Origin: Pseudanabaena sp. UWO311
GTDB taxonomy: Bacteria; Cyanobacteriota; Cyanobacteriia; Pseudanabaenales; Pseudanabaenaceae
Direction of reading: 5' to 3'
Length of the DNA: 64,000 nucleotides
Assembly: GCF_006937785.1 (NCBI RefSeq)
Contig: NZ_SJEE01000029.1
Location: 1-64,000, forward strand
Shown here: positions 2,275 to 44,245 of the stretch, piece after piece
Numbering within the stretch: position 1 is the stretch's first letter
Layout of the letters: every line of letters starts with the position of its first letter
Notes under the pieces: generated by a model
Database searches by the model: none
What the model saw: only the letters and a program-made list of their open reading frames with translations
What the model was told of the DNA's origin: nothing
Translations under genes and position numbers: made by a program

Positions 2275-2286
2275 GATTTCCTCCTA

Positions 2287-3621
2287 TTACCGCGCTGTAA
2301 CGGCTTGTCCGTCACTAAGTTGGGCGATATTGCTGGTAACGATGCGATCGCCTGCCTTTAAACCTGACACAATCTCAACCTGTCCATCTTGAGTTTTACC
2401 TGTTTTCACCCAACGCATCATGGCGATTGTTTTGGAGATGGCTTTATCTTCAACATTTTCCACCACATACACCCCTTGTAATTGTCCGCGTTGGATGAGA
2501 GCAGTTGTGGGAATGAGCAGCGTTTCTTTGGTTGCCCCAATAGGTAAGGCAATTCTCCCAAACATTCCAGAGATTAATTTACCCGAATTGTTTAGAGGAA
2601 TTTTGACTGAAAAGCTGCGTGATTGAGCATTAGCGGCTGGCACAATTTGTTGAATCGTGGCATTGAGTGATTGATTAACAGCATCAAACTGGACTTTGAC
2701 CGATTGACCGACCCGCACAAATCGCAAATTCTCTTCAGGCACAGAGATCTCTAGCTCAAGTTTATTGGGATTCTCCACTTTTAGTAATGGTGTCCCAGGA
2801 GCCGCCATTTCTCCTTCATAAGCTAGCTTTTGGACAACAACGCCATCAAAAGGCGCGAAGATCGTGCCATAGCTTTCGCTGACATCTGAAGAGATGACGC
2901 TCAGTTCGGCGCGACTCACCGCCGCTTGGGTTTGCGCGATCGCCGCCTGTGACTGACGAATACCCGCTTCTGACTGCGCGACCCTCGCTCTAGCCTGTTC
3001 GAGATTTGTATTTGCGTCATCTAATACTGATTGCGAAACTGCTCCTTCTGCTTGCAGTCGAGACATTCGCGATTGAGTCACTTGAGCTAATCGCAAAGCC
3101 GACTGTGCCTCTAATTTTTGCGATTCTAATTGATTGAGACTAGCTTGAGAGCGAAATACTTCCGCTTGGGCTTGGGCAACGCCTAACTGTGCTTGACCAG
3201 TTTGGGCAGTGATATCCATTACATCAATCCGTGTGAGGATATCGCCTTTGCGGAAGCGATCGCCCGTTTCTAGTGACAATTGCGTAATCCGCCCCATCAC
3301 CCTCGTTGAGAGCGTGGCTTGCTCTACAGGGCGAATTGAACCAGAAAGCTCTAAGGTATTTGCCACGGATTGAGAACGTATAGTTAAGGTGTCAACGCTA
3401 AGAGCAGAGGTACTTGCAATTTCTGAAGGTTGGGGCGATCGGTTCTGTGACAGTACAAACCAAGTTCCTCCTGTCAATAAAAGAACACCTCCGACCAATA
3501 ATCCCCAGCCCTTCCAAGACATTTTGGGTGTATGTGGTTGTTTTGGTTCTTGTTTAACGGCTTCATCAACTGGCGGATCGAGCGGTTCATGAAGTGATTC
3601 ATCTGAGGTAGTGTGAGTCAT
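2287..3621 (-). CDS. RND periplasmic adaptor (membrane fusion protein)
   Basis: Membrane-fusion subunit linking the adjacent RND permease to an outer-membrane channel. Visible parts in order: a charged cytoplasmic N-terminus, one membrane anchor (about residues 36-58, WGLLVGGVLLLTGGTWFVL), a first barrel/lipoyl half (STRVMGRITQLSLETGDRFRKGD), a long Ala/Gln-rich alpha hairpin of heptad type (about 135-245), the second lipoyl half (GTIFAPFDGVVVQKLAYEGE) and beta-barrel and C-terminal domains ending GLKAGDRIVTSNIAQLSDGQ. Length (444 aa) is normal. It lies 12 nt upstream of the permease and 24 nt downstream of the rhodanese gene, so it probably belongs to one operon running leftwards. Confidence 0.93.
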   Translation of the reverse strand: MTHTTSDESLHEPLDPPVDEAVKQEPKQPHTPKMSWKGWGLLVGGVLLLTGGTWFVLSQNRSPQPSEIASTSALSVDTLTIRSQSVANTLELSGSIRPVEQATLSTRVMGRITQLSLETGDRFRKGDILTRIDVMDITAQTGQAQLGVAQAQAEVFRSQASLNQLESQKLEAQSALRLAQVTQSRMSRLQAEGAVSQSVLDDANTNLEQARARVAQSEAGIRQSQAAIAQTQAAVSRAELSVISSDVSESYGTIFAPFDGVVVQKLAYEGEMAAPGTPLLKVENPNKLELEISVPEENLRFVRVGQSVKVQFDAVNQSLNATIQQIVPAANAQSRSFSVKIPLNNSGKLISGMFGRIALPIGATKETLLIPTTALIQRGQLQGVYVVENVEDKAISKTIAMMRWVKTGKTQDGQVEIVSGLKAGDRIVTSNIAQLSDGQAVTAR

Positions 3622-3645
3622 GGGATTAAGCCTTATTTTTTGTGT

Positions 3646-3957
3646 TTAAGGACGAATGCCTCTATGTACGGAATATCCAGCACTTTGCCAAGCCAATAAA
3701 CCTCCTTTTAAGCTATGGACTTTACTGTAGCCCTGAGCAACTAGCCATTGCGCTGCCATATCGCTGCGATGTCCAGACAGACAAGTAATCGCGATCGCCT
3801 GATCTTTGGGAACTTCCTTCAAAATGCGATCGCGGCTCATTTTCTTAGCTCCTGCAATATGCCCGATCAAATATTCCAACCAGCCGCGTACATCAACCAC
3901 CATTAATTGATTCTGACGTGACTTTAATTGCGAGGGTGAGAGTGGAGAAGGATTCAT
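3646..3957 (-). CDS. Single-domain rhodanese-like protein
   Basis: Cytoplasmic sulfurtransferase-type domain of 103 residues with no signal peptide. The active-site loop CLSGHRSD supplies the persulfide-forming cysteine, followed by the usual C-terminal GGLLAW motif. N-terminal features VVDVRGWLEYLIGHIAGAKKM match the family. Such proteins move sulfane sulfur between persulfides and acceptors. It sits just upstream of the RND adaptor on the same strand, and close to a sulfide:quinone oxidoreductase, which suggests handling of the sulfane sulfur produced by sulfide oxidation (inference). Confidence 0.88.
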   Translation of the reverse strand: MNPSPLSPSQLKSRQNQLMVVDVRGWLEYLIGHIAGAKKMSRDRILKEVPKDQAIAITCLSGHRSDMAAQWLVAQGYSKVHSLKGGLLAWQSAGYSVHRGIRP

Positions 3958-4041
3958 GGATTGTTTCTGCGCTTGCTTGTTTGTTTGTTGATTTAGCTTT
4001 CATTAGTTTTTCCCTTTTTGAATTGACTTGATTTACCTTGC

Positions 4042-4437
4042 TTAAACCTTGCTCATTACCGCAAATGATTTAATAAATGGAGATGCCATCCGAGGGTCTT
4101 TAATCATGGCAGTGTAATCACCAACACGGAATTGTAACTTGCGACTTATATACGCCATGCTCAATCCCATCATGTCCAAGCCTTTTGTTTTCCATTTCTC
4201 CCAATGGGTGCGATCGGCGCGTAAATCCCAATTCAGCTTCTGTCCTTCATAGGCTCCCGCAGAGATAACCTTTCCTTCTTCAATCATAAGAACACCTATA
4301 GGATTTGGATCGCGCTCAAACCCATAACCGATTACAGAGTTAAAATGAATCTTCGCAAGAGCATCAGCTAGATCAGGTTCTGCATTCCATTGTTCACCAA
4401 ATTCTTGCATCCATTCTGGGGAAAATAAATCTGTCAT
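4042..4437 (-). CDS. SCP2-like (sterol carrier/lipid-binding fold) protein
   Basis: Soluble protein of 131 residues. I place the start at the Met of MTDLFSPEWM because GGAG lies 7 nt upstream; longer in-frame extensions run into a C-rich repeat. The middle (GVLMIEEGKVISAGAYEGQKLNWDLRAD) and the C-terminal half (LQFRVGDYTAMIKDP, then a Phe/Met-rich helix) resemble SCP2-type lipid-binding domains. The exact ligand cannot be read from sequence. It lies between the frameshifted DUF3122 gene and the rhodanese gene on the same strand. The family call is from remembered resemblance only. Confidence 0.55.
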   Translation of the reverse strand: MTDLFSPEWMQEFGEQWNAEPDLADALAKIHFNSVIGYGFERDPNPIGVLMIEEGKVISAGAYEGQKLNWDLRADRTHWEKWKTKGLDMMGLSMAYISRKLQFRVGDYTAMIKDPRMASPFIKSFAVMSKV

Positions 4438-4520
4438 TGTTAACTCCAAAGTAATTTGATTTTGATTTTGAGTAGCCTCCTCATACCCTTTGGGAGCTAC
4501 CGAGTATACACAAGTCTCAT

Positions 4521-4622
4521 AACCCCCTTTAATTCCCCCTTGCAAAGGGGGAAGACTAGAAATCTTGTTCCCTCTCCTTTACAAGGGGAGGGCTAGGAAG
4601 GGGTTAAGGAGGGGGGTGAGGG
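4521..4622. repeat. C/G-tract palindromic repeat, copy 1
   Basis: Non-coding stretch built of C-rich and G-rich blocks (CCCCCTT...AAGGGGG, CCCTCTCC...GGGGAGGG) ending in GGGGGGTGAGGGC. Related copies lie at 7721-7820 and 40001-40090. Each can fold back on itself, and all sit between genes. Confidence 0.7.
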
Positions 4623-4624
4623 CT

Positions 4625-5153
4625 TTAGTAATTAGCCACAGTTTGCCATTCTGCAACTAGCGAAGGAGGAACCGATAAACTAATCGCATCACCTTTGATC
4701 GTTGGCAAAGAAATCTTTAAAGGAATCTCAGCTTGCAACTCCGACAGCAAAGGTTGAAGATCGTACTGTCCAACATTCGCCTGCGCTCCTTCTTTGAAAA
4801 TATTGCTAGACATATCGTTAGCAATGAGGGTTTTACCCAACGAGTTAGTTAAAGTCAGAGGCTGAGCATGGTCGATCGCTACCAAATTAGGAAAGCCCAC
4901 TAAGCGCAGTTCAAAACTAACTATTGCCATCAGGACGAACTCGTTTGAAAGCAATGGTTTGCCAAGTATTACCATGCTGATCCTTGAGAGATTGACGCGC
5001 TTGATAAATCATTTGATTAGGAGATTCTTCCAATTGTCGAATAGCCGCCGATGCACTAGGAACATCCAGAAGTCCTAATCCGATCAGAACAAAAATCGTA
5101 ATTGCACCAATCAACAATAACCAAGAGAAAAATTTGCGAGTTTGACATTTCAT
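4625..5153 (-). pseudogene. DUF3122-like exported protein, split by a frameshift
   Basis: Two overlapping reading frames together spell one DUF3122-type protein. The first (4917-5153) gives an N-terminal membrane/signal segment (FFSWLLLIGAITIFVLIGLGLL) and LEESPNQMIYQARQSLKDQ, ending RVRPDGNS and a stop. The second frame continues with FELRLVGFPNLVAIDHAQPL to the C-terminus near 4625. Removing one T from the GTTAGTTTTG run near 4914-4920 joins them as PDGN-S-S-FELRLVGF. Function of the family is unknown (exported, cyanobacterial). Either a real inactivating mutation or a sequencing error. Confidence 0.7.
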
Positions 5154-5179
5154 AACGTTTGTATCCTAATTAAGTTATG

Positions 5180-5212
5180 GATGATGCTTAGTGCGAAGCA
5201 CTAAGCATCATC
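5180..5212 (-). terminator. Terminator hairpin after arsR
   Basis: Perfect 15-bp stem (GATGATGCTTAGTGC and its complement) around a GAA loop, giving the stable GCGAAGC core. It abuts the stop codon of the ArsR gene that ends at 5213. Confidence 0.75.
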
Positions 5213-5509
5213 TCAAGAATTATTCCGAAATTTATGGCTAGAACTACACAGCATCAGTAACTCTGTATCAATGACTCGGTAAAATCGCCACACACTCTCT
5301 CTCCGACAGGCTACCACTCCAGCATCTTTCATCAATCGCAAATGCTTCGATACATTGCCTTGATGGAGTCCAGTGCGATCGCAGATATCCTGTACACTGC
5401 GCTCTTGGTTACAAATTGCCATCAGGATTTGCAGACGAGTTGGTTCTGCCAAAGCGCGGAATCGATTTGCCAGAATTTCCAATTCGCTAGGATTGAGAGT
5501 GATGTCCAT
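5213..5509 (-). CDS. ArsR-family transcriptional regulator (first)
   Basis: Winged-helix repressor of 98 residues. The recognition region DRTGLHQGNVSKHLRLMKDAGVV is typical of the family. Cysteines at about 33 (ILMAICNQERS), 42, 67 and 87 could sense metals or persulfides, as in SqrR/BigR-type ArsR proteins; this assignment is inference. It lies 43 nt downstream of the sulfide:quinone oxidoreductase gene on the same strand. In Synechocystis an arsR-type gene also accompanies an SQR gene (established precedent), so it is a candidate regulator of the SQR locus. Confidence 0.9.
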   Translation of the reverse strand: MDITLNPSELEILANRFRALAEPTRLQILMAICNQERSVQDICDRTGLHQGNVSKHLRLMKDAGVVACRRESVWRFYRVIDTELLMLCSSSHKFRNNS

Positions 5510-5552
5510 ACCTGCTCCTACTATTCAAAATTAGGATATTGCTCATTCCCAT

Positions 5553-6857
5553 TCATGCTTTCGCTTGAACTGGATCTGGTTCTAAGCTGGGGATAATTGG
5601 TTCCACAAGTGGTAGTCCGATCGCTCTAAAGCCAATCTTCTCAAACCAAGGAATCGTCCAGCCAAAGCGCATTTTCGTGAGAAAATACTTCTCAAATCCA
5701 GCCTTCATCCAAGACACCCAGATCCCGTGATAGATAAGGGCACGTTTGCGATCACCTGCCGCATCAGGCAAAAGTGGATCAGCGAGAAATAATGCGCCCG
5801 TATTACCGAAATCCGCAAAGCAAATCGCTTGTAAGGTTGGTCTGCATTGATTTCCAGAAGTAACTCCCAACTCTAAGGCAATATTCTGGGCGACTGCTAA
5901 CGCCATTTCTTCAGACATCAATCCCACCTTGGGAGCACCTGTGGGGATTGGTGTTTGTTCAACCGCTTTGAGTTGCGTAACCACACCGACAGCATAAATG
6001 GAATCAAATTCTGGATGACGATAGGTGGGTAATACGGGTACAAATCCCTTAGCATCAGTTAGCCCGACCGCATCACGGAGAAATTTGGGTCCTCGGAAAG
6101 GCGGTAGCACCATCGTAAATTTAGAAGGAATCACGCGCCCATCAACTAAATGCACAGCATCAGCTTCAAAATGGGAAATAGCAGTATTTTCCATCAGTTC
6201 GATTTCCCGATCAGCCATAAATTTACGCATCAGCCATCTGGAGGTTGCCATGCCGCCGATGCCTAGATGTCCTGCATAGGGTTCAGAAGTAATGAAGGTG
6301 ATCGGAACCTGCGATCGCAGTCCTTTTCTCTTCAATTGATCATGGATCAAAAAAGCAAACTCATAGGCGGGACCAAAACAACTCGCTCCTGGGGAGGCAC
6401 CCACCACGATCGGTCCTGGATTCTCTAAGAATTGCTCCCATGCTTCACCAGCTAACACTGCATGATGTGGATTACAAATTGATTGGGTATAGCCACCTTC
6501 TGGACCTAATCCCTTCAGAGCATCCAAGGCAAGTTCGGGTCCCGTGGCAATCACCGCATAGTCATAGTCCAATGTGCGATCGTCGTCCATCTTGATCTGA
6601 CGCAACTTTGGATTGATCGCAGTAACCGCTGCATGAATAAACTCAATGTCATGTTTGATGACGGTTTTGGCTAAATCTAATTGAATGCTATCAAGGGATT
6701 TTAATCCTAGCGCCACCCAAGGCAGAGAAGGCACAAAGGTAAATTTTGGTTGATTGGAAATAAGCGTGATCTTATGTTCACGGGGTAATACATGCCTCAA
6801 CTCGTAAGCAGCAGGTAAACCTCCTAATCCAGCGCCAATCACAACAACACGAGCCAT
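5553..6857 (-). CDS. sqr: Sulfide:quinone oxidoreductase-like flavoprotein
   Basis: Membrane-peripheral flavoprotein that would oxidise sulfide to sulfane sulfur and pass electrons to plastoquinone. The N-terminus has the FAD Rossmann motif (VVVIGAGLGGLPAA), and IATGP follows at about 104. Cysteines at 128 (SICNP), 160 (GASPGASCFGP) and 346 (QAICFADFG) fall where the three essential cysteines of Rhodobacter-type SQR lie (127, 159, 353). Length 434 fits. Quinone-site and C-terminal amphipathic regions (GIWVSWMKAGFEKYFLTKM) are present. The related FCSD or Ndh-2 families are less likely because of the cysteines. It is flanked by arsR and a DUF2892 gene on the same strand. Confidence 0.85.
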   Translation of the reverse strand: MARVVVIGAGLGGLPAAYELRHVLPREHKITLISNQPKFTFVPSLPWVALGLKSLDSIQLDLAKTVIKHDIEFIHAAVTAINPKLRQIKMDDDRTLDYDYAVIATGPELALDALKGLGPEGGYTQSICNPHHAVLAGEAWEQFLENPGPIVVGASPGASCFGPAYEFAFLIHDQLKRKGLRSQVPITFITSEPYAGHLGIGGMATSRWLMRKFMADREIELMENTAISHFEADAVHLVDGRVIPSKFTMVLPPFRGPKFLRDAVGLTDAKGFVPVLPTYRHPEFDSIYAVGVVTQLKAVEQTPIPTGAPKVGLMSEEMALAVAQNIALELGVTSGNQCRPTLQAICFADFGNTGALFLADPLLPDAAGDRKRALIYHGIWVSWMKAGFEKYFLTKMRFGWTIPWFEKIGFRAIGLPLVEPIIPSLEPDPVQAKA

Positions 6858-6912
6858 AATCTCGACTCCAAAAAAATAATTTTTTATTAAAAATTTTTAT
6901 TAAATGCTCCTA

Positions 6913-6945
6913 GTGTGAGGATGGTGCAAAGCATTATCCTCACAC
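6913..6945 (-). terminator. Hairpin after the DUF2892 gene
   Basis: Fifteen-base arms (GTGTGAGGATGGTGC and partner, two G-T pairs) around AAA, right after the stop codon at 6948 and followed on the minus strand by T-rich sequence. It separates the DUF2892 gene from sqr, although read-through is possible. Confidence 0.6.
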
Positions 6946-6947
6946 AT

Positions 6948-7166
6948 TCACTCTCTCACTCCTAGTTTTTGCAATACCGCAATCAACGGACACCATTTAG
7001 TAAAAGCAGATTGCAGCAAATTCAGTCCGACAAATGCCGTCAAAAATAACCAATTGACTTTAATCAGCGATAGGGACAAGCTGATTAAAACCATACTGCC
7101 TGCGACTAAGCGCAACCACTGCGATTGATTCCAAGATCGGTTACTACTAATCATCGGTTTCTGCAT
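6948..7166 (-). CDS. DUF2892 (YgaP-like) membrane protein
   Basis: Small membrane protein of 72 residues with two helices (WLRLVAGSMVLISLSLSLI and WLFLTAFVGLNLLQSAF) followed by the family's KWCPLIAVLQKLG tail. In E. coli YgaP this domain is fused to a rhodanese; here rhodaneses are separate genes nearby. It may anchor or partner sulfur-transfer proteins, which is inference. An inverted repeat at 7196-7211, shared with three other promoters of this region, lies 30 nt upstream of the start. Confidence 0.85.
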   Translation of the reverse strand: MQKPMISSNRSWNQSQWLRLVAGSMVLISLSLSLIKVNWLFLTAFVGLNLLQSAFTKWCPLIAVLQKLGVRE

Positions 7167-7195
7167 TGTGCTTTTAAAATTAATAAAATGATTAT

Positions 7196-7211
7196 ATCAC
7201 TATAAAGTAAT
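7196..7211 (-). promoter_or_regulatory. Candidate ArsR operator upstream of DUF2892
   Basis: ATCACT-ATAA-AGTAAT, matching the ATnACT-N4-AGTAAT pattern of the perfect palindrome in front of the second arsR gene. About 17 of 22 bases match that palindrome across the wider site. It starts 30 nt upstream of the ATG at 7166. Confidence 0.5.
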
Positions 7212-7256
7212 TTAGTTAATAAATTGAAATATTTTGAAACTAATTAGTTTTTAGAA

Positions 7257-7667
7257 TTAAATGTAGTACATCCGCACACCTTTGTGGTCATCTTCTCCAC
7301 CATGTGCATGTTCCACCTCATGATCGCGATCGCGTTCCTCTTGAGTCTTCACAATTAACGAACCCGCAAGATAGTCTGTTACGGCAGTATCGGGATCGGT
7401 TTCGGAAGTGACAATTGGTTTGATATCTTTGGCTTCCAGTCGGCAAACTAATCCATTTCCCATACTGCCGCTAATCAGTACCTGCACAACGTCCAATGGA
7501 TGGGTTTCTTTAGGAGAGCTTTCATTGAAGCTTTCAGCTTTAGTGAGTTGTAACAGTTGTTTATCTTGAATAAATGTGTCGTCCACATCATAGATCCAGA
7601 ATTTCTGGCAATGTCCGAGATGTCCTGTTACATTGGTTTGATTTTGGCTAGACACGGCAATTTTCAT
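7257..7667 (-). CDS. NifX/NifB-type dinitrogenase cofactor-domain protein
   Basis: Protein of 136 residues starting MKIAVSSQNQTNVTGHLGHCQKFWIYDV, the signature of the small Fe-Mo-cofactor-binding domain shared by NifX, NafY and NifB C-termini. The middle has VLISGSMGNGLVCRLEAKDIKPIV. A His/Asp/Glu-rich tail (HEVEHAHGGEDDHKG) could bind metal. No nitrogenase genes are visible, so a role in nitrogen fixation is not supported. Stand-alone members are often linked to Fe-S or metal-cluster handling. Located between the sqr cluster and the rogue psbA gene. Confidence 0.8.
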   Translation of the reverse strand: MKIAVSSQNQTNVTGHLGHCQKFWIYDVDDTFIQDKQLLQLTKAESFNESSPKETHPLDVVQVLISGSMGNGLVCRLEAKDIKPIVTSETDPDTAVTDYLAGSLIVKTQEERDRDHEVEHAHGGEDDHKGVRMYYI

Positions 7668-7720
7668 TGAATAGTTCCTATTTTTTGTTTTTTAGTTGAT
7701 GTTATGTGAAAGTTTCTAAG

Positions 7721-7820
7721 ACCCTCACCCCTAGCCCCTCTCCCAAAAGGGGAGAGGGGAACAAGAGTTGGTCTTACTCCCCCTCGCCCTTCATGGGAGA
7801 GGGGGCTGGGGGGTGAGGGC
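7721..7820. repeat. C/G-tract palindromic repeat, copy 2
   Basis: Begins ACCCTCACCCCTAGCCCCTC and ends GGGGGCTGGGGGGTGAGGG, with an internal CTCTCCC-AAAA-GGGGAGAG hairpin. Its ends are complementary, so the whole unit folds back. Same family as 4521-4622 and 40001-40090. Fills the gap between the rogue psbA gene and the NifX-like gene. Confidence 0.75.
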
Positions 7821-7848
7821 AATCTTCGTTCTACTTAACATGAGTTGT

Positions 7849-8922
7849 CTAAGCAGAAATATCAGGAGATGTCAGAGCCAATGGAACGGGGAAATTATGT
7901 CCATTAGGCGATCGCATGACTTCAATTCCAAGGTCTGCACGATTAAGCAAATCCGCATCAGTGCGAATTGGATGACCAGAATCATCTGAAATCGATTGTT
8001 GGAAATTAAACCCATTGAGATTAAAGCTCATTGCGCCAATCCCTAAAGCGGCAAACCAAATGCCGATAGTTGGCAAGGCAGCTAAGAGAAAGTGGGTAGT
8101 CCGACTATTCCGTAGTGACAATGTGGGAATCAGCAATCTACCCAGATAACCACTGTGGCTGGCAAGTAAATTATAGGTAGTTTCTTCTTGCCCAAATTTA
8201 TAGCCAAGGTTAGCTGATTCAATCTCTGTAGTTTCGCGAATTAGGCTCGAAGTAACGAGAGAGCCGTGGAGCGAACTCAAAAGCGCACCACCCAAAATTC
8301 CAGCTACTCCAATCATGTGGAACGGATGCATCAAGACATTATGCTTTGCTTGGAGCGAGAGCATGAAGTAGAAAGTACCCGAAATCCCCAAAGGCATTCC
8401 TTCAGAAAAGCTTCCCTGTCCGATTGGGTAGATGAACAGTACGGCAGTGGCTGCGGCTACGGGAGCAGAAAAGGCTACGGCGATCCAAGGACGCATTCCT
8501 AAGCGGTAGCTCAATTCCCATTGGCGACCGAGATAAGCCCAGATGCCAATCAGAAAATGAAACACGATCATCTGATAAGGCCCGCCATTATATAGCCATT
8601 CATCAATGGAGTCAGCTTCCCACACAGGATAAAAGTGCAACCCGATCGCCGCCGAAGTTGGCACGACAGCAGCAGTAATCATATTGTTGTGAGCCATCAG
8701 CGATCCCGCAATGGGAGCGCGAATACCCTCCATATCGACAGATGGAGCATTGGCGATCGCTAGTACAAAAACAATCGCTGCCACGAGCAATGTGGGAATT
8801 GCGAGAATACCGAACCAACCTATATATAGACGGTTGTTGGTACTTGTGATCCAGCCAGAAAAGACTTGCCAAGAATTTACTGGGTCAAGCTTTGACTGTT
8901 TCGGAAAGATATAAGTTGTCAT
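7849..8922 (-). CDS. psbA: Rogue/sentinel-type photosystem II D1 protein
   Basis: A 357-residue D1 homologue with all five membrane helices. By D1 numbering (offset +4, later +5) it keeps TyrZ Y161, H190, the P680 ligand H198 and the iron ligands H215 and H272. It has lost Mn4CaO5 ligands: D170 is E, E189 is K, H332 is R, E333 is S and D342 is P. The C-terminus is short (ends TSPDISA) and lacks the normal processing context. This pattern defines D1 proteins that assemble a photosystem II unable to evolve oxygen (sentinel D1, first described in unicellular N2-fixers). ChlF synthase is less likely. Neighbours suggest use under sulfide or anoxia. Confidence 0.92.
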
Positions 8923-9023
8923 AATTATTACTCTTTGTCAATACAATTCAATAGTGAATAGAATGTAACTGAACTGAGAAGTTTAAAAAGACTGCAATTA
9001 GCGATCCTGAATATGGAGATATC

Positions 9024-9560
9024 CTATACCCACCAAGGCTTATTACCAGTCCGAGGATCGGTTTCTGTCCATGGCGAGATTAAGATTTTGTTGTCAGTTA
9101 CTGCTACTTTGACAATCTTGAGTGGTAGAGGAGCAGGACCACGCACCACGGTTCCATTGGGGGCATAGCGAGAACCATGACAGGGACATTGAAACTGCTG
9201 ATCCATTGGGTTCCAAGAAAAAGTGCAACCGAGATGTGTACAGTTATCGACAATGCCGATGTTGTCGAGAGTGCGATCGGCGGTAACAATCAGATAGGTG
9301 GGTTCTCCTGCTAAACCTGCCACTAGAGCGCGAGTTTCTGGTGGCTCAGCCAAGAGTTGTGAGGCGGGAATTACTTTGCCTAAGATATCCTTAGCAAGAA
9401 TAGCGCCACCTTCACCAACGGCTTCTGATGGCGGAACGAAGAAATTACCAAAGGGATAGAGTGCCGAACCTGCGGTCACGGCGATCGCCGATCCAGTGAT
9501 GAAATTTAGTAATTGCCGCCTTGATAGAGAAGGGCTTTCGAGAGGGAGACTATTTTCCAT
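9024..9560 (-). CDS. petC: Alternative Rieske iron-sulfur protein
   Basis: Rieske subunit paralogue of the cytochrome b6f complex, 178 residues. It has a twin-arginine N-terminus (SLSRRQLLNFITGSAIAVTAG), a single anchor, and the two cluster-binding boxes CTHLGC and CPCHG. The C-terminus TDPRTGNKPWWV parallels that of the main PetC at 44246-44785 but the protein is clearly divergent. Cyanobacteria often have minor petC copies with altered expression. Here it lies directly upstream of the rogue psbA gene and overlaps the DUF2892 gene by 11 nt, so an operon DUF2892-petC-psbA is likely. Confidence 0.9.
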   Translation of the reverse strand: MENSLPLESPSLSRRQLLNFITGSAIAVTAGSALYPFGNFFVPPSEAVGEGGAILAKDILGKVIPASQLLAEPPETRALVAGLAGEPTYLIVTADRTLDNIGIVDNCTHLGCTFSWNPMDQQFQCPCHGSRYAPNGTVVRGPAPLPLKIVKVAVTDNKILISPWTETDPRTGNKPWWV

Positions 9561-9771
9561 GAAGAGACCCAGTAAGTTTATTGGTGCGAATTCCTAGAAG
9601 CTGATAAAGTCCACAAAAGCCTACTAGAGCAGTTACTAGCATTACGCCACCCACTGCAACTAAAGCAATACCTAATCCAGTACCGCCATAAAGGAAAAAG
9701 CCTAAATAGAACAACGCAGAAGCCAATAACAAGCGGATCAAGCGATCGATTGCGCCAACATTTGTATTCAT
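9550..9771 (-). CDS. DUF2892 (YgaP-like) membrane protein, second copy
   Basis: Small membrane protein starting MNTNVGAIDRLIRLLLASALFYLG, with two helices and the motif LVGFCGLYQLLGI. GGAG lies 8 nt before this ATG, which decides the start over a longer in-frame extension. It overlaps the next gene (alternative petC) by 11 nt, indicating translational coupling. The first member of the presumed operon with petC and the rogue psbA gene. Confidence 0.85.
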   Translation of the reverse strand: MNTNVGAIDRLIRLLLASALFYLGFFLYGGTGLGIALVAVGGVMLVTALVGFCGLYQLLGIRTNKLTGSLHGK

Positions 9772-9871
9772 AATGGAAATCTCCAATGTTAAACAAATTG
9801 CAAAAACTTGCAGCAATATTGGAAGACTTAATTCTTGAAGTATTGCAATGTTTTTTGTAACCTACTTTAAT

Positions 9872-9887
9872 ATAACTTATTAGTAAT
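9872..9887. promoter_or_regulatory. Candidate ArsR operator upstream of DUF2892-petC-psbA
   Basis: ATAACT-TATT-AGTAAT, the same layout as at 7196-7211 and 15635-15650. It lies 101 nt upstream of the DUF2892 start and about 330 nt upstream of the divergent DUF4079 gene, so it could affect both. Confidence 0.45.
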
Positions 9888-10212
9888 ATAATTAAACAAG
9901 ATTAATCTTAAGACTAAGTTAAGTTTGTTTTCTAGATGAGTCAACCCTATGCTAAATATAGGCTTTAGCTTTTCCATAAGTCATGAGTAGTTAATCGTTC
10001 CTTCGTAAAGAACTATATGGTTTCAGTACAATTTATGTAATTCATACAGGAAGTTATACGTCAGAATGTAATACTGATTTTTGTTCCCATCTATTTTTTT
10101 ATAGGTTAGACCTAGGTATAGAGTTATAGCGATTTTCTAGCGTTATTTAATGGATGGGAAGTAGAAAAGATATCCAATCACTTTATATGCGATCGCATTG
10201 AAAACAATCGTC
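9888..10212. other. Divergent intergenic region
   Basis: A+T-rich gap between the leftward DUF2892-petC-psbA genes and the rightward DUF4079 gene. Apart from the operator-like site just before it, I see no ORF, tRNA or strong hairpin. Promoters for both directions must lie here. Confidence 0.5.
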
Positions 10213-10698
10213 ATGAATTCAGAAACTTTATCGCCTCTCAAGCCCTATCTCAGCTTTTTTCATCCCATTATGATGTGGATATTGCTGGGTATTACTATCT
10301 ATGCGATGTATCTGGGTGTGCAAGTTCGTCGCACCAGACTAGCAGAAGGTGATATTAAGAAAGAAATGATCAAAGGTAAATTCGCGATTCGTCATCACCA
10401 AATTGGTTCTATCGTTCTAGCCATAATGGTATTGGGTGCGATTGGTGGTATTGTGGCGACATATATAAGTAGTGGCAAGATTTTCATTAACGCTCATTTG
10501 TTTGCTGGTTTAGGAATGGTAGGTGCGATCGCTGTGTCGGCGGCTCTAGTTCCCTTTATGCAAAAGCATGACTGGGTTCGCAAAGTTCATGTGGCGATCA
10601 ATATGCTGGTGATGGGGCTGTTTGGTTGGCAAGCTTTTACTGGTGTACAAATTGTGCAGAAGATTTTGAGTTCGATGAATACACCTGCTGCGGGTTAA
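10213..10698 (+). CDS. DUF4079 membrane protein (cytochrome b561-like)
   Basis: Four-helix membrane protein of 161 residues, starting at the ATG of MNSETLSPLKPYLSFFHPIMMW; a TTG 15 nt earlier is possible, and neither has a clear Shine-Dalgarno. Paired histidines in helices (SFFHPIMMW, RHHQIGSIV, NAHLFAGLGM, RKVHVAINML) fit b-type heme ligation in cytochrome-b561-like DUF4079 proteins of cyanobacteria. It would sit in a membrane near the quinone pool. A secreted rhodanese follows after 11 nt, so they are probably co-transcribed. Confidence 0.8.
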   Translation: MNSETLSPLKPYLSFFHPIMMWILLGITIYAMYLGVQVRRTRLAEGDIKKEMIKGKFAIRHHQIGSIVLAIMVLGAIGGIVATYISSGKIFINAHLFAGLGMVGAIAVSAALVPFMQKHDWVRKVHVAINMLVMGLFGWQAFTGVQIVQKILSSMNTPAAG

Positions 10699-10709
10699 TT
10701 GAAGAAATC

Positions 10710-11210
10710 ATGAAGCTTACGAAATCGCTCTCAACTTTACTGCTCGGAATCGTTTTATCATTCTCTCTCTTGTTAGGATTTCAGACCAACGCGATCGCCT
10801 CAAAACCAATCGATATACCTAATCTGCTGTCGAGTATTCAAGGATATCCGCGACTGGAAATGGCGTTGGATAAATATCTCATGGCTATTCCATCGGGATA
10901 CTACACGATCGCTAATGTCGAAGAGTTGAAAAGTTTGATGACAGATCGTCAAGCTCTATTAGTGGATGTCCGCGAACCATCGGAATATCAATCAGGACAT
11001 ATCCCTAGTGCCATTAATATTCCACTGCGGACAATATCGCGTAATTTAAGCAAAATTCCTAGCGATCGCCCTGTAATTTTATACTGTTCCACGGGCTATC
11101 GATCTTCGATGGGTGTGATGACCTTACATCTACTGAATTATGACAATGTGCAAGGCTTTCCGCCAAGCTTAGTTGGTTGGCAAAAAGCTGGTGAAGCGAT
11201 CGCTACGTGA
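10710..11210 (+). CDS. Exported rhodanese-like sulfurtransferase
   Basis: Rhodanese domain preceded by a signal peptide (MKLTKSLSTLLLGIVLSFSLLLGFQTNAIA), 166 residues. The active-site loop is YCSTGYRSS with the nucleophilic cysteine. I start at the ATG preceded by GAAGAA, since upstream extension would overlap the DUF4079 gene. Location outside the cytoplasm, plus sqr nearby, suggests handling of sulfane sulfur in periplasm or lumen (inference). Confidence 0.88.
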   Translation: MKLTKSLSTLLLGIVLSFSLLLGFQTNAIASKPIDIPNLLSSIQGYPRLEMALDKYLMAIPSGYYTIANVEELKSLMTDRQALLVDVREPSEYQSGHIPSAINIPLRTISRNLSKIPSDRPVILYCSTGYRSSMGVMTLHLLNYDNVQGFPPSLVGWQKAGEAIAT

Positions 11211-11234
11211 AAATAGGCGATTACTATTTTGACC

Positions 11235-11747
11235 TTAATAAATCCAAGGAATTAATTTTTTAACTTGTGATCGATATTGATCATAATCAGAGAATTTACT
11301 ACTCAGCCATGATTCTTCTTTTCTGGCTTTGATGTCAAAAAATAGTAGTAGGGTTATTGCGCCGATCGCATGAACGAAACTCAACTGACAAAAACTATAG
11401 GCGATCGCCAAGAAAATCACACCGCTATAAATCGGATGCCTGACCATTCCATAAATGCCACTAGTTACCAATTCTCCATCCTGTTTGGGATGAGGTAAAG
11501 GAGTAAGGTTACTTCCTAATTCTCGGCTTCCTGAAAGTAATAATGAGGCAGCGATTAGCCCGAACAGTCCTGCCAATAACCAACCTATGTATTTCCAAAA
11601 TGGCGGCAAATCATTTAAAGCGGTTTCTGGATACACAGGCAAAAGCACAAATCCAACAGAGAGAATTGTTTGACCGAGTACCCAATACTCGCCCTTCTCA
11701 CCACGCCACCATTGTGCTGAAAATCCCCATTCTTTAAATTGGTTCAT
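11235..11747 (-). CDS. Isoprenylcysteine methyltransferase-family membrane protein
   Basis: Integral membrane protein of 170 residues with about four helices and the ICMT/PEMT-type signature near the C-terminus: GIYGMVRHPIYSGVIF, then RKEESWLSSKFSDYDQYRSQVKKLIPWIY. The family methylates lipid or thiol groups using S-adenosylmethionine; the substrate in cyanobacteria is generally unknown. It converges on the secreted rhodanese gene with a 24-nt gap and lies downstream of the flavoprotein gene. Confidence 0.8.
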   Translation of the reverse strand: MNQFKEWGFSAQWWRGEKGEYWVLGQTILSVGFVLLPVYPETALNDLPPFWKYIGWLLAGLFGLIAASLLLSGSRELGSNLTPLPHPKQDGELVTSGIYGMVRHPIYSGVIFLAIAYSFCQLSFVHAIGAITLLLFFDIKARKEESWLSSKFSDYDQYRSQVKKLIPWIY

Positions 11748-11785
11748 ATCTTCCTTCTTGCTTGTGAAATTATATTGTAAGCGTT

Positions 11786-12889
11786 CTAAGCAACTAACTC
11801 AGCCATCAGTTCGGCAACAGGCATAATTCGTTTCGCTCGTCCAGCATTGCTTCCTGAGAAAATAAGTCCATTCTCAATATCACCTCGCGCCGCTTTGTCT
11901 AACACCTTAATAATGCAGTAATATTTCTGCTCATCGCGACATTTACAGTTATGCAGACAACTGGCTAAGCAACGTTTATCCAGATTGGCATCTCCTGCGA
12001 TCGCCTTTTCCACAAAAGAATTCCTCAATGCTCTTCCTGGCATTCCCACAGGGCTAGAGATAATCACCACATCTTCAGGTTGAGCATGGAGGTGAAATTC
12101 TTTGTAGCGAATATCCGCATCACATTCATCGGTGGTAATAAATCGCGTACCGATCTGCACACCACTGGCTCCTATTGCGATCATGCGATCAATGTCGTCC
12201 CGATCCCATACACCACCTGCGGCGATTACGGGAATGGCTTTACCAAGTTCCTGTTGTAGATATGTCACTAATTCGGGAATTACCTGTTCTGCATCCAACG
12301 TGCGATCTCCTAGCTCTTCCAATTTAGCGCCTAGATGTCCACCTGCGGAATTGGGGTTTTCTACAATAAAAGCATCAGGCAACCTTCCATAATTCCGTTC
12401 CCATTTACGGCACATAATTCGAGCGGCACGGGTGCTAGAAACGATTGGCACTAATGCGACTTCTGGATAGTCGGCAGTAAATTCTGGTAATTGCATGGGC
12501 AATCCTGCACCAGAAATAATTAAATTTATCCCTTGCTCAGCCGATGTACGCACTAAGGTTTCATAATCTTGAGCTGCAACCATAACATTGACAGCCAAAA
12601 TACCATCGGGGCTAAGTTTACGCGCTTTTTGAATTTCATCAATTAGCGCCAGTCGATTTGCTTCAAAAAACTGCTCTCTTCGTTTACCAACATTAGTCTG
12701 AGTAATATCAAAATAGGGTGAATTCAGCCCTAAAGCAACAGCAGAAATTACTCCAATACCACCCGCATTAGCGACCGCCGCCGCCAGATTCGCTCCAGAA
12801 ATACGAATGCCCATACCTCCTTGAATAATAGGATATCGAGCAAAATAATGACCGATTTGGAGAGAGGGTAATAATATTTGCATCTTCAA
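11786..12889 (-). CDS. Nitronate monooxygenase/enoyl reductase-like flavoprotein
   Basis: TIM-barrel FMN enzyme of the 2-nitropropane dioxygenase family, 367 residues (M1 and M3 both possible). Motifs include PIIQGGMGIRISG at the N-terminus, the FMN/phosphate region AAGGVWDRDDIDRMIAIGASGVQIGTRF, and AGGHLG with the likely catalytic histidine. A C-terminal cysteine cluster (CLASCLHNCKCRDEQKYYC) is unusual for simple nitronate monooxygenases and suggests a metal or Fe-S site, or redox control. An operator-like inverted repeat lies 33 nt upstream, shared with the sulfur and psbA genes. Confidence 0.85.
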   Translation of the reverse strand: MKMQILLPSLQIGHYFARYPIIQGGMGIRISGANLAAAVANAGGIGVISAVALGLNSPYFDITQTNVGKRREQFFEANRLALIDEIQKARKLSPDGILAVNVMVAAQDYETLVRTSAEQGINLIISGAGLPMQLPEFTADYPEVALVPIVSSTRAARIMCRKWERNYGRLPDAFIVENPNSAGGHLGAKLEELGDRTLDAEQVIPELVTYLQQELGKAIPVIAAGGVWDRDDIDRMIAIGASGVQIGTRFITTDECDADIRYKEFHLHAQPEDVVIISSPVGMPGRALRNSFVEKAIAGDANLDKRCLASCLHNCKCRDEQKYYCIIKVLDKAARGDIENGLIFSGSNAGRAKRIMPVAELMAELVA

Positions 12890-12921
12890 AGACCGACTAG
12901 GATTTCATACTCTAAGTATAC

Positions 12922-12934
12922 ACTTGTTAGTAAT
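12922..12934 (-). promoter_or_regulatory. Candidate ArsR operator upstream of flavoprotein gene
   Basis: ACT-TGTT-AGTAAT, the core of the shared inverted repeat, 33 nt upstream of the flavoprotein start. The left arm is weaker (TACACT) than at the other three sites. Confidence 0.4.
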
Positions 12935-12991
12935 TACATAACTATAAGGTTATAAAACAAACCTTAATCATTTGAATCAATTAAACTTTAT

Positions 12992-13021
12992 AAAAAAGCC
13001 CTCTTTTCGGAGAGCTTTTTT
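12992..13021 (-). terminator. Terminator of the psbA (D1') gene
   Basis: AAAAAAGCCCTC arm, TTTTCG loop and GAGAGCTTTTTT arm; on the minus strand the stem ends in a T run about 30 nt after the psbA stop codon. A typical rho-independent terminator. Confidence 0.85.
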
Positions 13022-13051
13022 ATTTGGTAAGAGAGTGGGAAATTACAGGGA

Positions 13052-14134
13052 TTATCCGTTGATAGCTGGAGATCTCATCCCAACAGGTGTTACGTCAAGT
13101 GCCGCCAAGTCGAGAGGGAAATTGTGAACATTACGCTCATGCATTACTTCAATACCCAAGTTAGCGCGGTTAATTACGTCAGCCCAAGTAGGTATTAAAT
13201 TTCCTTGGCTGCTGGAAATTGAGTGGTTGAAATTGAAGCCATTCAGATTGAATGCAAAAGAACTTACACCCAAAGCAGCAAACCAGATTCCAACTACTGG
13301 CCATAGGGCAAGAAAGAAGTGCAAACTTCGACTGTTATTGAAGGAGGCATATTGGAAAATCAAGCGTCCAAAGTAACCGTGAGCAGCCACGATATTGTAG
13401 GTTTCTTCTTCTTGACCAAACTTATAACCAGCATTCTGAGTTTCATTTTCAGTAGTTTCACGAATCAAGCTAGAAGTTACAAGGGAACCATGCATGGCAG
13501 CAAATAATGCGCCCCCAAACACACCTGCTACTCCTAACATGTGGAAAGGATGCATCAGCACATTGTGTTCTGCTTGAAGTACAAGCATGAAGTTGAAAGT
13601 ACCAGAAATCCCCAAAGGTAAGCCGTCAGAGAACGATCCTTGCCCAACGGAGTAGATCAATAGGACTGCGGTTGCTGCTGCGACAGGTGCAGAGTAGGCT
13701 ACAGCAATCCAAGGACGCATACCGAGGCGGTATGACAATTCCCATTCACGTCCCATATAAGAGTAAATTCCGAGCAAGAAATGAAAGACAATCAGCTGGT
13801 AAGGACCACCGTTGTATAACCATTCATCAAGACTATCAGCTTCCCAAATGGGGTAAAAGTGCAGACCGATCGCGTTCGAGGAGGGAACGACGGCGGCGGT
13901 AATCAAGTTGTTGCCAGATAGCAAGGAGCCAGAAATAGGCTCACGGATTCCGTCAATATCTACGGCAGGTGCACCGATAAAGGCGATGATGAAACAAATG
14001 GTTGCAGTGATCAAGGTGGGGATCATGATAATGCCAAACCAGCCAATGTATAGGCGGTTTTCGGTACTAGTGACCCAATCACAAAACTGATCCCAGACTG
14101 ACGCATTGTTTCGTCTTTGTGTAGCTGTTGTCAT
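13052..14134 (-). CDS. psbA: Photosystem II D1 protein, microaerobic D1' type
   Basis: A 360-residue D1 whose numbering matches the standard protein exactly. All oxygen-evolving cluster ligands are present (D170, E189, H332, E333, D342, A344), as are Y161, H198, H215 and H272. It carries A80, L158 and A286 in place of the usual G80, F158 and T286. Those three together are the published hallmark of D1', the form induced under microaerobic conditions. S162 after TyrZ (usually P) is a further difference. It is followed by a C-terminal extension after A344 that would be cleaved. It has its own promoter (14207-14234) and terminator. No standard D1 gene is in this window. Confidence 0.95.
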
Positions 14135-14206
14135 GGTTATTTTATGTGAGATTTGTTAAGCAGATTGGCTGTCTTGAATATCAATATATAGCCAATCAGT
14201 TATACG

Positions 14207-14234
14207 ACTATACAATAAATAGGAAGACTGTCAA
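14207..14234 (-). promoter_or_regulatory. Promoter of the D1' psbA gene
   Basis: On the minus strand TTGACA (14229-14234), a 16-bp spacer and TATAGT (14207-14212), about 73 nt upstream of the ATG. The palindromic TATACGACTATA overlaps the -10 element and could bind a regulator. Confidence 0.6.
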
Positions 14235-14363
14235 CATAAAGTGGCTCCTAAAATGCTAAGAAAAGATAAAGTAAGATTGTGAAAGAGAAGAATATTTGGT
14301 GATTAGAGGGATTTCCTATAAGTCTTGCTAGCAAAGGTATTTAGGTTATATATAGATACAAAG

Positions 14364-14428
14364 ATTGATCTGATATATGGATATAATGTTGGGTACTTCC
14401 CGCTCATTAATCCATATGTCAGATCAAT
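14364..14428 (-). terminator. Inverted repeat at the end of the Nudix gene
   Basis: Arms ATTGATCTGATATATGGA and TCCATATGTCAGATCAAT (two mismatches) flank a 29-nt loop and overlap the Nudix stop codon. No clear T run, so termination is possible rather than certain. The rest of 14235-14363 shows nothing recognisable. Confidence 0.4.
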
Positions 14429-14984
14429 ATTGATTTAGTAATACCCACTCCAGCAAGACAGCACGGCATTGTAGACAAGTAATCTCCTTAAGTAAGTCCT
14501 TTACTCCATCTGAAGTTGCAGGATGAGTAACTGTAACTAATTCAGGGCTTAATTTTACTTTGGGTTCTATATGAGCCACAAATCCAAAAAGCTTTTGATT
14601 GGAGAAAGAACTATTCACAGCCCAACCTTCAGCATTTAAAGGAATTAATTGCGCGATCGCTGATGCCTCAATTCCTAACTCGCGCTTGAGCGTAGCGATC
14701 GCTGCAAGTTGAGGACTCTCTCCTGCGGGTACACGTCCACCAGAAAAGTCTAAAGTTATCTGCCCAATACCAGCACGATAACTTGGCTTAGGAATTAAGA
14801 TGCGATCGCCTTGAATTGGCAGAACAATCACTGAATCAGCTTTCTCAATCCGCCAATACTCCAAAATCTCGCCGCGATCATCTTGCAGATATTCGCCAAT
14901 TAAGGTCATCCAATGCGAATGCATTTCTAGGAAGCGATCTTGGATTTGCCAAATTTGTGGAGAGTTAGACTGTATTTTATCCAT
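14424..14984 (-). CDS. Nudix-fold protein with degenerate Nudix box
   Basis: Protein of 186 residues starting MDKIQSNSPQIWQIQD, with the beta-sheet pattern of ADP-ribose-pyrophosphatase-like Nudix enzymes. The box reads GGRVPAGESPQLAAIATLKREL. The first glycine and glutamate are in place, but the catalytic RE is AT and the first Glu of EE is R, so classical hydrolase activity is doubtful. The original Shine-Dalgarno (GGAG, 15164-15167) is now separated from this ATG by a 166-bp MITE inserted after the second codon; the target duplication recreates the ATG. An in-frame start inside the MITE would add 16 residues. Expression is uncertain. Confidence 0.7.
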   Translation of the reverse strand: MDKIQSNSPQIWQIQDRFLEMHSHWMTLIGEYLQDDRGEILEYWRIEKADSVIVLPIQGDRILIPKPSYRAGIGQITLDFSGGRVPAGESPQLAAIATLKRELGIEASAIAQLIPLNAEGWAVNSSFSNQKLFGFVAHIEPKVKLSPELVTVTHPATSDGVKDLLKEITCLQCRAVLLEWVLLNQY

Positions 14985-14986
14985 AA

Positions 14987-15152
14987 CTGGTGTTACGTGG
15001 AACTCAGGGCATGAATTTCTTGCTGCTAGCACAGCAGGGCAACCACGGGGGGATTGCCCCTACCTGAATAATTTAAATTTTTTGTAGGGGCTGTGCCCCC
15101 GGGCCAGCCCAGATCCTTCAACATTGCAGGAATTCCTTCCACGTAACATCAG
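14987..15152. mobile_element. MITE-like element, copy 1
   Basis: 166-bp non-coding element with 16-bp terminal inverted repeats CTGGTGTTACGTGGAA and TTCCACGTAACATCAG (one mismatch). It is flanked by an exact 7-bp direct repeat TCCATAA (14980-14986 and 15153-15159), the target duplication. Its complement is clearly homologous to 33307-33470. No transposase is encoded, so it would need one elsewhere in the genome. Confidence 0.9.
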
Positions 15153-15191
15153 TCCATAACTTACTCCAATGGTATGCCGTTGGATAAGTCT

Positions 15192-15587
15192 TCAAGCGTA
15201 ACTTTTAGCTTTAACTTTAGAGTTCTTTTGACTAGCCTTGATAGGTTCAGATCGTCGTAATCCTTCCAGTTGCTTTAGTTGTTGCGACTGTTCTTCCAAT
15301 CGAATAGAAAGGCGATCGCTCACCAATTCACATAGATCAAAAATGAATGGTTCGATAATCTCGTAATACACGCTGACTCCTTGAGGAGTCCTAGAGACAA
15401 TCCCTGACTGAGCTAAAATCTTTAGGTGTTTCGAGACATTTGCTTGCCCCAATCCTGTATCTTCCATAATTTCTGTAACATTCTTTGAGCCTGACTTCAA
15501 AGAACATAAGACTTGTAGTCGGCTGAGTTCGGATAATACCTTAAAGTAATCGGCGACTTGAGTCAGGGCAGAAGGATTGAAGGTCAT
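15192..15587 (-). CDS. ArsR-family transcriptional regulator (second)
   Basis: Winged-helix repressor of 131 residues; the recognition helix region is GLGQANVSKHLKILAQSGIV. Cysteine 28 (LQVLCSLKSG) and cysteine 86 (FDLCELV) are placed much as the reactive pair of SqrR/BigR persulfide sensors, spaced by 58 rather than about 66 residues; a persulfide-sensing role is inference. A Lys/Ser-rich C-terminal tail extends past the usual fold. A perfect palindrome with a tandem half-site (15627-15670) begins 40 nt upstream, implying autoregulation, and weaker copies of it lie at three other promoters of this region. Confidence 0.9.
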   Translation of the reverse strand: MTFNPSALTQVADYFKVLSELSRLQVLCSLKSGSKNVTEIMEDTGLGQANVSKHLKILAQSGIVSRTPQGVSVYYEIIEPFIFDLCELVSDRLSIRLEEQSQQLKQLEGLRRSEPIKASQKNSKVKAKSYA

Positions 15588-15626
15588 GATGGTAGAGGAG
15601 AACTTTAATTATTTAATTTAATTCAT

Positions 15627-15670
15627 TATAGCATATTACTATATAGTAATATGCTATATAGTAATATGCT
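15627..15670. promoter_or_regulatory. Perfect palindromic operator with tandem half-site
   Basis: 15627-15658 is a 32-bp perfect palindrome whose core is ATTACT-ATAT-AGTAAT (15635-15650). The right half, ATATAGTAATATGCT, is then repeated head to tail (15641-15655 and 15656-15670). It lies 40 nt upstream of the second arsR gene and likely binds its dimeric product. Confidence 0.7.
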
Positions 15671-15730
15671 AATTCACAAAAGGTTGATGACACTTCTGTG
15701 AATTGAAAAGCAAACCCTGTAGGGTTTTTA

Positions 15731-15763
15731 AAAACACAAAATGGCGTAGCCATTTTGTGTTTT
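15731..15763 (-). terminator. Terminator of the second RND operon
   Basis: Perfect 15-bp stem AAAACACAAAATGGC around GTA, about 100 nt after the permease stop codon, with T-rich 3' arm. It lies between the RND permease end and the arsR operator. The remainder of 15671-15862 shows only a small AACCC...GGGTT hairpin. Confidence 0.65.
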
Positions 15764-15862
15764 GGTATAAATTAATGATAATCAAATAGATTAGATTGTG
15801 GCGAAAACGTATGCTAAAAAAGAATAGGTAGTACTTGTTTTGATTTTAGAGTACAAAGAGCT

Positions 15863-19066: not shown

Positions 19067-19095
19067 AGTTACCTCTTAAAAATAATTTAAAAAAG

Positions 19096-19132
19096 GTGAT
19101 GATGTAACGCGCAGAGCGCATTACATCATCAC
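19096..19132 (-). promoter_or_regulatory. Hairpin between RND adaptor and permease genes
   Basis: Near-perfect 17-bp stem (GTGATGATGTAA, then GCGC) around AGA, starting at the adaptor stop codon. Within an operon it may set the ratio of the two proteins by attenuation or mRNA processing rather than end transcription. Confidence 0.5.
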
Positions 19133-44159: not shown

Positions 44160-44199
44160 GTATAAGTTCAAATGTATTTCAAAGACCAATTTGGATATG

Positions 44200-44236
44200 T
44201 TTAGGATAGACGGCGCGGAGCGCTGTCTATCCTAAA
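44200..44236 (-). promoter_or_regulatory. Hairpin between petC and petA
   Basis: 17-bp stem (TTTAGGATAGACGGCGC and partner, one G-T) around GGA, within the petCA operon spacer. It may stabilise or partially terminate the petC message. Confidence 0.55.
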
Positions 44237-44245
44237 CCCTTTATT

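Follow-up and report, generated by a model that had tools for sequence, protein, structure and literature searches.

A close counterpart of the locus studied here has been described in a gene cluster of Acaryochloris, in which Hernandez-Prieto and colleagues reported psbA1 together with a DUF2892 gene, a PetC gene, and a rhodanese gene (PMC5295598, 2016). In that paper, psbA1 and the adjacent petC rise together under microoxia, co-transcription was suggested, and a similar Synechocystis cluster (slr1181-slr1185) is named. Alternative Rieske and D1 genes have also been described next to genes for sulfide oxidation. In the Thermostichales, the type I sulfide:quinone oxidoreductase gene (sqr) is flanked by petC2 (PMC11304991), and psbA genes of groups 2 and 3 lie near sqr and arsR, for which linked regulation was suggested (PMC5061849). 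Grim and Dick called these variant psbA/sqr/arsR genes an attractive target for study (PMC5061849), and some low-oxygen genes were reported to answer to an unidentified regulator (PMC4500134). The wider matter behind these observations is the switch of cyanobacteria from water to sulfide as the electron source of photosynthesis, and back.

In this work, we analyzed a window of 64,000 nucleotides (the whole stretch of DNA examined) from the 5.21-Mb genome of Pseudanabaena sp. UWO311, in which a DUF2892 gene, petC2, and psbA4 follow one another on one strand (Table 1). The open reading frames confirmed the gene order, common strand, and overlap that had been read from the sequence in the original prediction: DUF2892 extends from an ATG at 9771 to a stop codon at 9550-9552, petC2 has its ATG at 9560 and its stop at 9024, which gives an overlap of 11 nt, and the ATG of psbA4 at 8922 comes 101 nt past petC2. 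The products of the first and last genes matched YgaP-like_TM (DUF2892, PF11127; 1.6e-19) and Photo_RC (7.7e-85) in Pfam, respectively, and dN/dS values of 0.03-0.14 indicate purifying selection on the trio. A terminator scan of the trio strand found no terminator-like site in the petC2-psbA4 gap, which also contains no operator. Given the common strand, the 11-nt overlap, the 101-nt gap free of terminator-like sites, and the single putative operator ahead of all three genes, the trio looks co-transcribed on the basis of its sequence.

Table 1. Features of the DUF2892-petC2-psbA4 locus and its surroundings (contig NZ_SJEE01000029.1; positions are those of the 64-kb window).
Feature	Position	Strand	Remarks
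ArsR_A, ArsR-family regulator	5213..5509	-	last gene of the sqr unit
Sulfide:quinone oxidoreductase (sqr)	5553..6857	-	best PDB matches are the sulfide-quinone reductases 3hyv and 3kpk
Second DUF2892 gene (DUF2892a)	6948..7166	-	opens the sqr unit; Pfam
Operator copy O2	7193..7214	.	26 nt ahead of DUF2892a-sqr-arsR_A; overlaps a promoter-like -35/-10 pair
Nitro_FeMo-Co-domain protein	7257..7667	-	between psbA4 and the sqr unit; Pfam
psbA4, rogue (group 2-like) D1 without Mn-cluster ligands	7849..8922	-	Pfam, residue alignment, tree
petC2-psbA4 gap	8923..9023	-	101 nt; ~62 of these form a block that hardly varies among 8 Pseudanabaena loci
petC2, alternative Rieske iron-sulfur subunit of cytochrome b6f, 178 aa	9024..9560	-	Pfam, NCBIfam, tree
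DUF2892 / YgaP-like transmembrane protein, 73 aa	9550..9771	-	first gene of the unit; 11-nt overlap with petC2
Operator copy O1	9869..9890	.	score 24.0, best of the window; between the trio and the divergent DUF4079-rhodanese unit
DUF4079 membrane protein	10213..10698	+	divergent from the trio across O1
Rhodanese with N-terminal hydrophobic leader	10710..11210	+	3' of DUF4079
ICMT-like methyltransferase	11235..11747	-	Synechocystis-type loci have one between psbA1 and petC2
FabK / nitronate monooxygenase-like flavoprotein	11786..12889	-	family search
Operator copy O3	12935..12956	.	score 19.4; 5' of the FabK-like gene
psbA-D1', D1'-type (L158, A286; microaerobic type), all Mn ligands	13052..14134	-	family search, residues
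Operator copy O4	14185..14206	.	score 16.8; 5' of psbA-D1'
ArsR_B, widespread ArsR-family regulator	15192..15587	-	candidate regulator of the operators
Operator copy O5	15632..15653	.	score 20.3; 5' of arsR_B

The sqr unit lies just downstream of the trio on the same strand, and its SQR matched 3hyv over the full length (E 1.4e-102, residues 3-407). The Nitro_FeMo-Co-domain gene in between stays next to psbA4 in the Pseudanabaena relatives. Beyond arsR_A, a DUF3122 gene (4625-5153) is split across two overlapping frames covering profile positions 1-41 and 44-134, probably by a frameshift. On the other side, between O1 and DUF2892, an inverted repeat (TTGCAATACTTCAAGA...TCTTCCAATATTGCTGCAA on the minus strand, at about 9808-9848) is kept in Pseudanabaena loci and may be a leader hairpin or a second operator. 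The possibility that the leader holds a known RNA element was rejected, as Rfam gave no matches in positions 1-20000 of the window.

The petC2 product had been proposed to be a special b6f subunit, and it proved to be a true PetC2 paralogue. It matched TM_PetC (1.5e-20) and Rieske (4.1e-9) in Pfam, scored above the NCBIfam Cytb6fFeSPetC cut-off, and retains the PetC membrane anchor and the Rieske cluster motifs CTHLGC and CPCHGS. In a PetC tree of 49 rows, it belongs to a separate PetC2 clade (100/100) that excludes petC1, the first Rieske copy (44246-44785), which adjoins petA in the same window (petA/petC1 pair, 43176-44785). One candidate petC2 locus, L190, was petC1-like in this tree and was removed from the petC2 set. 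In L187 (9807-10325), the PetC2 sequence ends a 584-aa open frame with a long N-terminal part that resembles a membrane protein, which is possibly a PetC2 fusion.

The PetC2 proteins of Acaryochloris-like genomes (L281 7984-9012, L282, and L283) have a C-terminal BLH_phosphatase (PF04273) fusion, and an F replaces the Y of CPCHGSRY, a change that could lower the Rieske potential. In BigR operons, the BLH_phosphatase domain accompanies sulfane-sulfur enzymes; if this association holds, the fusion ties PetC2 directly to sulfur handling.

For psbA4, the proposal of a D1 that does not split water was upheld at the level of residues, as the predicted protein has lost ligands of the Mn cluster (D170E, E189K, H332R, E333S, and D342P). 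It also carries D61E and retains Y161, H190, H337, and A344. This rogue D1 scored below the NCBIfam psbA cut-off and the D1' copy above it. In the tree, the rogue D1 is outside the supported clade of standard D1 (100/98), and the backbone among rogue sequences is weak (72/89). Rogue D1 proteins of Pseudanabaena (positions 7849-8922 of the window, L016, L017, L156, and L191-L194) share a basic K or R at 189 and R332, at two former Mn-ligand positions, unlike most other sampled rogue D1 proteins, which retain H332. These basic residues might substitute for the positive charge of the lost cluster.

To place the trio in a wider context, 35 petC2 loci from a phylum-wide sample of 386 genomes were compared with 18 petC1 control loci, with a neighborhood of 10 kb. 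DUF2892 genes were found near 18 of the 35 petC2 loci and none of the 18 petC1 loci (Fisher p=1.2e-4), and the corresponding counts were 17/35 and 0/18 for rhodanese, 13/35 and 0/18 for SQR, and 12/35 and 0/18 for psbA. Across the phylum, DUF2892 lies directly 5' of petC2 in 14 of the 35 loci. A second genome with the arrangement, which the original prediction had called for, was found: the trio is present in several further Pseudanabaena genomes, and it recurs in Acaryochloris-like genomes with a rhodanese gene inserted (DUF2892-petC2-rhodanese-psbA). The conservation in other Pseudanabaena and the DUF2892 counts (18/35 vs 0/18) indicate an arrangement beyond chance. The 11-nt overlap also occurs in L016, L191, and L193, and all but one of the eight aligned loci have a petC2-psbA gap of 101-115 nt, the exception being L198. 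In L192, DUF2892 is lost and petC2 and psbA are still together. In one Pseudanabaena genome (G404), the cluster is present twice from arsR and sqr through DUF2892, and the two copies, which are near-identical, are on separate contigs (L191 and L193).

The partnership with the rogue D1 is narrower. Pseudanabaena and Acaryochloris-like genomes have a rogue psbA near petC2, as do two Leptolyngbya (L018 and L094) in a looser association; the full-length psbA genes near petC2 outside Pseudanabaena are of the D1' form. The proposed specific coupling of PetC2 to a non-water-splitting D1 did not survive this comparison, as most sampled genomes with both genes carry them at distant sites (G109, G119, G306, and G368). 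A further 19 rogue psbA loci have no petC2, DUF2892, or SQR gene nearby. Moreover, the psbA4 beside petC2 is disrupted by stops or frameshifts in L198 (genome G389) and in three Acaryochloris-like copies (L282, L284, and L285), with intact copies in relatives. PetC2 is regularly accompanied by DUF2892, rhodanese, SQR, and the microaerobic D1', a form in which no Mn ligand is lost. The neighbor counts, the distant pairs, and the broken psbA copies together indicate that PetC2 belongs mainly to a sulfide module, which the rogue D1 joins optionally in some lineages. The petC2-linked rogue psbA genes may represent one old cassette.

A putative operator connects the units of this module. In unbiased word counts, TAGTTATA occurred in 18 of the 42 regions upstream of petC2 units, whereas no word exceeded 9 regions in shuffled sequences, and its extension gave the palindrome TATATAACTA-AT-TAGTTATATA. 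A matrix was built from 15 training sites, none from Pseudanabaena and none located before ArsR_B or D1' genes, and used to scan the 64-kb window. The five top matches (24.0-16.8; in descending order O1, O5, O3, O2, and O4) each precede a unit of the cluster, the next match scored 12.8, and the number of sites scoring at least 15 per 64 kb was five, compared with 0.02 expected from fourth-order Markov simulations. The O1 block is conserved in 8 loci. O2 overlaps a promoter-like hexamer pair, as expected of a repressor site. A short IUPAC pattern of the operator was too loose for whole-genome use (93 matches vs 53 in the reversed control) and was discarded.

Across the sampled genomes, the operator precedes psbA of the microaerobic D1' type in 15 of 19 rows (one genome counted twice) and standard psbA in 0 of 85 (p=8e-15). 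It was found before 5 of the 39 rogue psbA genes, and before none of the 19 petC1 or 18 petA genes. Sites scoring at least 15 amounted to 7.0 per 100 kb at petC2 loci (training sites included), 0.28 at petC1 loci, and 0.36 at standard psbA loci. Of the 34 petC2 genomes, 10 have no clear operator at the locus of this gene. We found no description of a shared operator with its likely repressor in the open-access papers searched, and an operator common to the alternative Rieske, rogue D1, microaerobic D1', and SQR genes looks to be a new element.

Two ArsR-family regulators are encoded at the locus. ArsR_A was rejected as a general regulator; it was found in only 8 of the 386 genomes and never with the operator (0/7), and it scored 46.6 bits against the NCBIfam BigR equivalog, under the cut-off of 155 bits. 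ArsR_B or a homologue is present in 131 of the 386 genomes. Among its best 31 matches, 19 carry the operator 41-103 nt upstream, mostly at 40-75 nt (shuffle mean 0.23). The C28 of ArsR_B aligns with the first redox Cys (alpha-2) of SqrR and BigR; the second Cys, C86, is conserved within ArsR_B and located in the C-terminal helix, several residues ahead of what we take to be the position of the second Cys of SqrR, and ArsR_B was not classed as SqrR. A homologue of ArsR_B was found in 23 of the 24 operator-positive petC2 genomes, the exception being G282, and in 7 of the 10 operator-negative ones, so the link between regulator and operator is not one-to-one. ArsR_B is probably an autoregulated two-cysteine repressor of these operators, as far as gene content and alignments indicate. 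Operator-bearing ArsR_B genes are often located beside rhodanese genes even when neither psbA nor petC2 is near (L321-L350), for which reason the regulon is probably wider than photosynthesis genes. The binding sites of ChlR and RexT were also considered for the operator and rejected, the motifs being different or absent.

Based on these patterns, we consider it probable that the trio is one transcription unit within an ArsR_B-controlled sulfide/low-oxygen regulon. In oxic sulfide-free cells, ArsR_B would bind O1-O5 and repress all units including its own gene. Sulfane sulfur or another low-oxygen signal would then oxidize both cysteines of ArsR_B, by analogy with SqrR and BigR, upon which all units would be released together. 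SQR would feed electrons from sulfide into plastoquinone, PetC2 would take the place of PetC1 in cytochrome b6f, D1' would keep photosystem II functional, and the rogue D1 would assemble a photosystem II incapable of water oxidation. The sulfane sulfur that SQR produces is probably handled by DUF2892 and rhodanese, which together resemble a split YgaP. Least secure in this scheme is the signal, which may be oxygen instead of sulfide. More tentatively, the regulon may be cyanobacteria-wide: an autoregulated two-cysteine ArsR_B may sense sulfane sulfur and switch PetC2, D1', and in some lineages the rogue D1 together with SQR, and may thus be the missing regulator that couples the microaerobic D1 to sulfide oxidation.

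The trio could instead be the known low-oxygen cluster (psbA1-DUF2892-petC2-rhodanese), responsive to oxygen rather than sulfide and near sulfide genes since anoxic habitats are often sulfidic. Such a reading agrees with the microoxic induction without sulfide in Acaryochloris (PMC5295598) and with the binding of the oxygen sensor ChlR to the Synechocystis psbA1 promoter (PMC4500134), a ChlR-like motif being located before psbA1 in the Synechocystis-type loci L165 and L166. However, the ChlR motif (TTMCC-N3/4-GGWAA) is absent from positions 1-20000 of the window, which places the trio outside the ChlR regulon on this measure, and the window operators are unlike this motif and recur before sqr and before an ArsR gene with an SqrR/BigR-like cysteine. 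SQR and rhodanese are, in addition, enriched at PetC2 loci, and we regard a purely oxygen-responsive cluster as somewhat unlikely.

Two further explanations concern parts of the proposed regulon. If psbA4 were transcribed independently from a promoter within the 101-nt gap, its adjacency to petC2 would be a lineage accident. The 62-nt block that hardly varies ahead of psbA4 in Pseudanabaena could serve as an independent promoter or as an element of the 5' UTR, psbA4 is distant from petC2 in most genomes, and L198 has a psbA4 broken at the start and an intact petC2. This appears improbable to us, as a consensus scan of the gap on the trio strand gave a sole promoter-like match that ends at the psbA4 start codon, leaving no credible internal promoter, and Pseudanabaena and Acaryochloris-like genomes repeat the arrangement DUF2892-petC2-(rhodanese)-psbA in gene order as well as in orientation. 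Another regulator might also bind the operators, with arsR_B merely another target; an operator ahead of a regulator gene is compatible with such third-party control, as is the imperfect co-occurrence of ArsR_B and operator. Autoregulation at nearly fixed spacing is nevertheless a typical trait of ArsR repressors, many of the 19 site-carrying genes among the best 31 ArsR_B matches have no petC2, psbA, or sqr alongside, and Synechocystis-type genomes lack both ArsR_B and the operator. Control by a third party is unlikely in our judgment, and the favored reading is still that of a trio repressed by ArsR_B.

A concrete operator and a candidate repressor make the switch between water- and sulfide-driven photosynthesis directly testable. 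The operator also predicts which D1 and Rieske isoforms accompany sulfide oxidation in mat and spring genomes, and these predictions bear on models of the low-oxygen Proterozoic.

Among known systems, the trio closely resembles the Acaryochloris marina cluster AM1_0448-0451 (PMC5295598), which has the same kinds of genes, with a rogue-type D1 by an alternative PetC, and for which microoxic induction was described. The trio had been thought undescribed, and that cluster, as reported there, precedes it. Unlike the trio, Acaryochloris-like genomes have the rhodanese gene between petC and psbA and a PetC with the C-terminal BLH_phosphatase domain, and no shared operator or regulator is reported in the accessible part of PMC5295598. 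The Synechocystis genes from psbA1 (slr1181) to petC2 (slr1185) likewise combine psbA, rhodanese, DUF2892, and PetC2 on one strand, but the psbA encodes a D1' with all Mn ligands, and Synechocystis-type loci have the ChlR-like motif and not the window operator, in agreement with ChlR binding (PMC4500134). The Thermostichales share the placement of PetC2 beside sqr; a rogue-psbA trio and a common operator are not reported in the accessible part of PMC11304991. Groups 2 and 3 psbA resemble the locus in the proximity of variant psbA, sqr, and arsR, but PMC5061849 makes no mention of Rieske, petC, or DUF2892 and gives no operator. Among regulators, RexT of Nostoc is, like ArsR_B, a cyanobacterial redox repressor of the ArsR family, but its site is ATTCG-N15-CGAAT and its vicinal Cys pair is on another helix (PMC8960804). 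The persulfide-sensing ArsR repressors SqrR and BigR share with ArsR_B the fold, the aligned first Cys, and targets in sulfide oxidation. The window operator presumably differs in sequence from the SqrR site. Unlike the regulons of SqrR and BigR, the putative regulon described here extends to subunits of photosystem II and cytochrome b6f.
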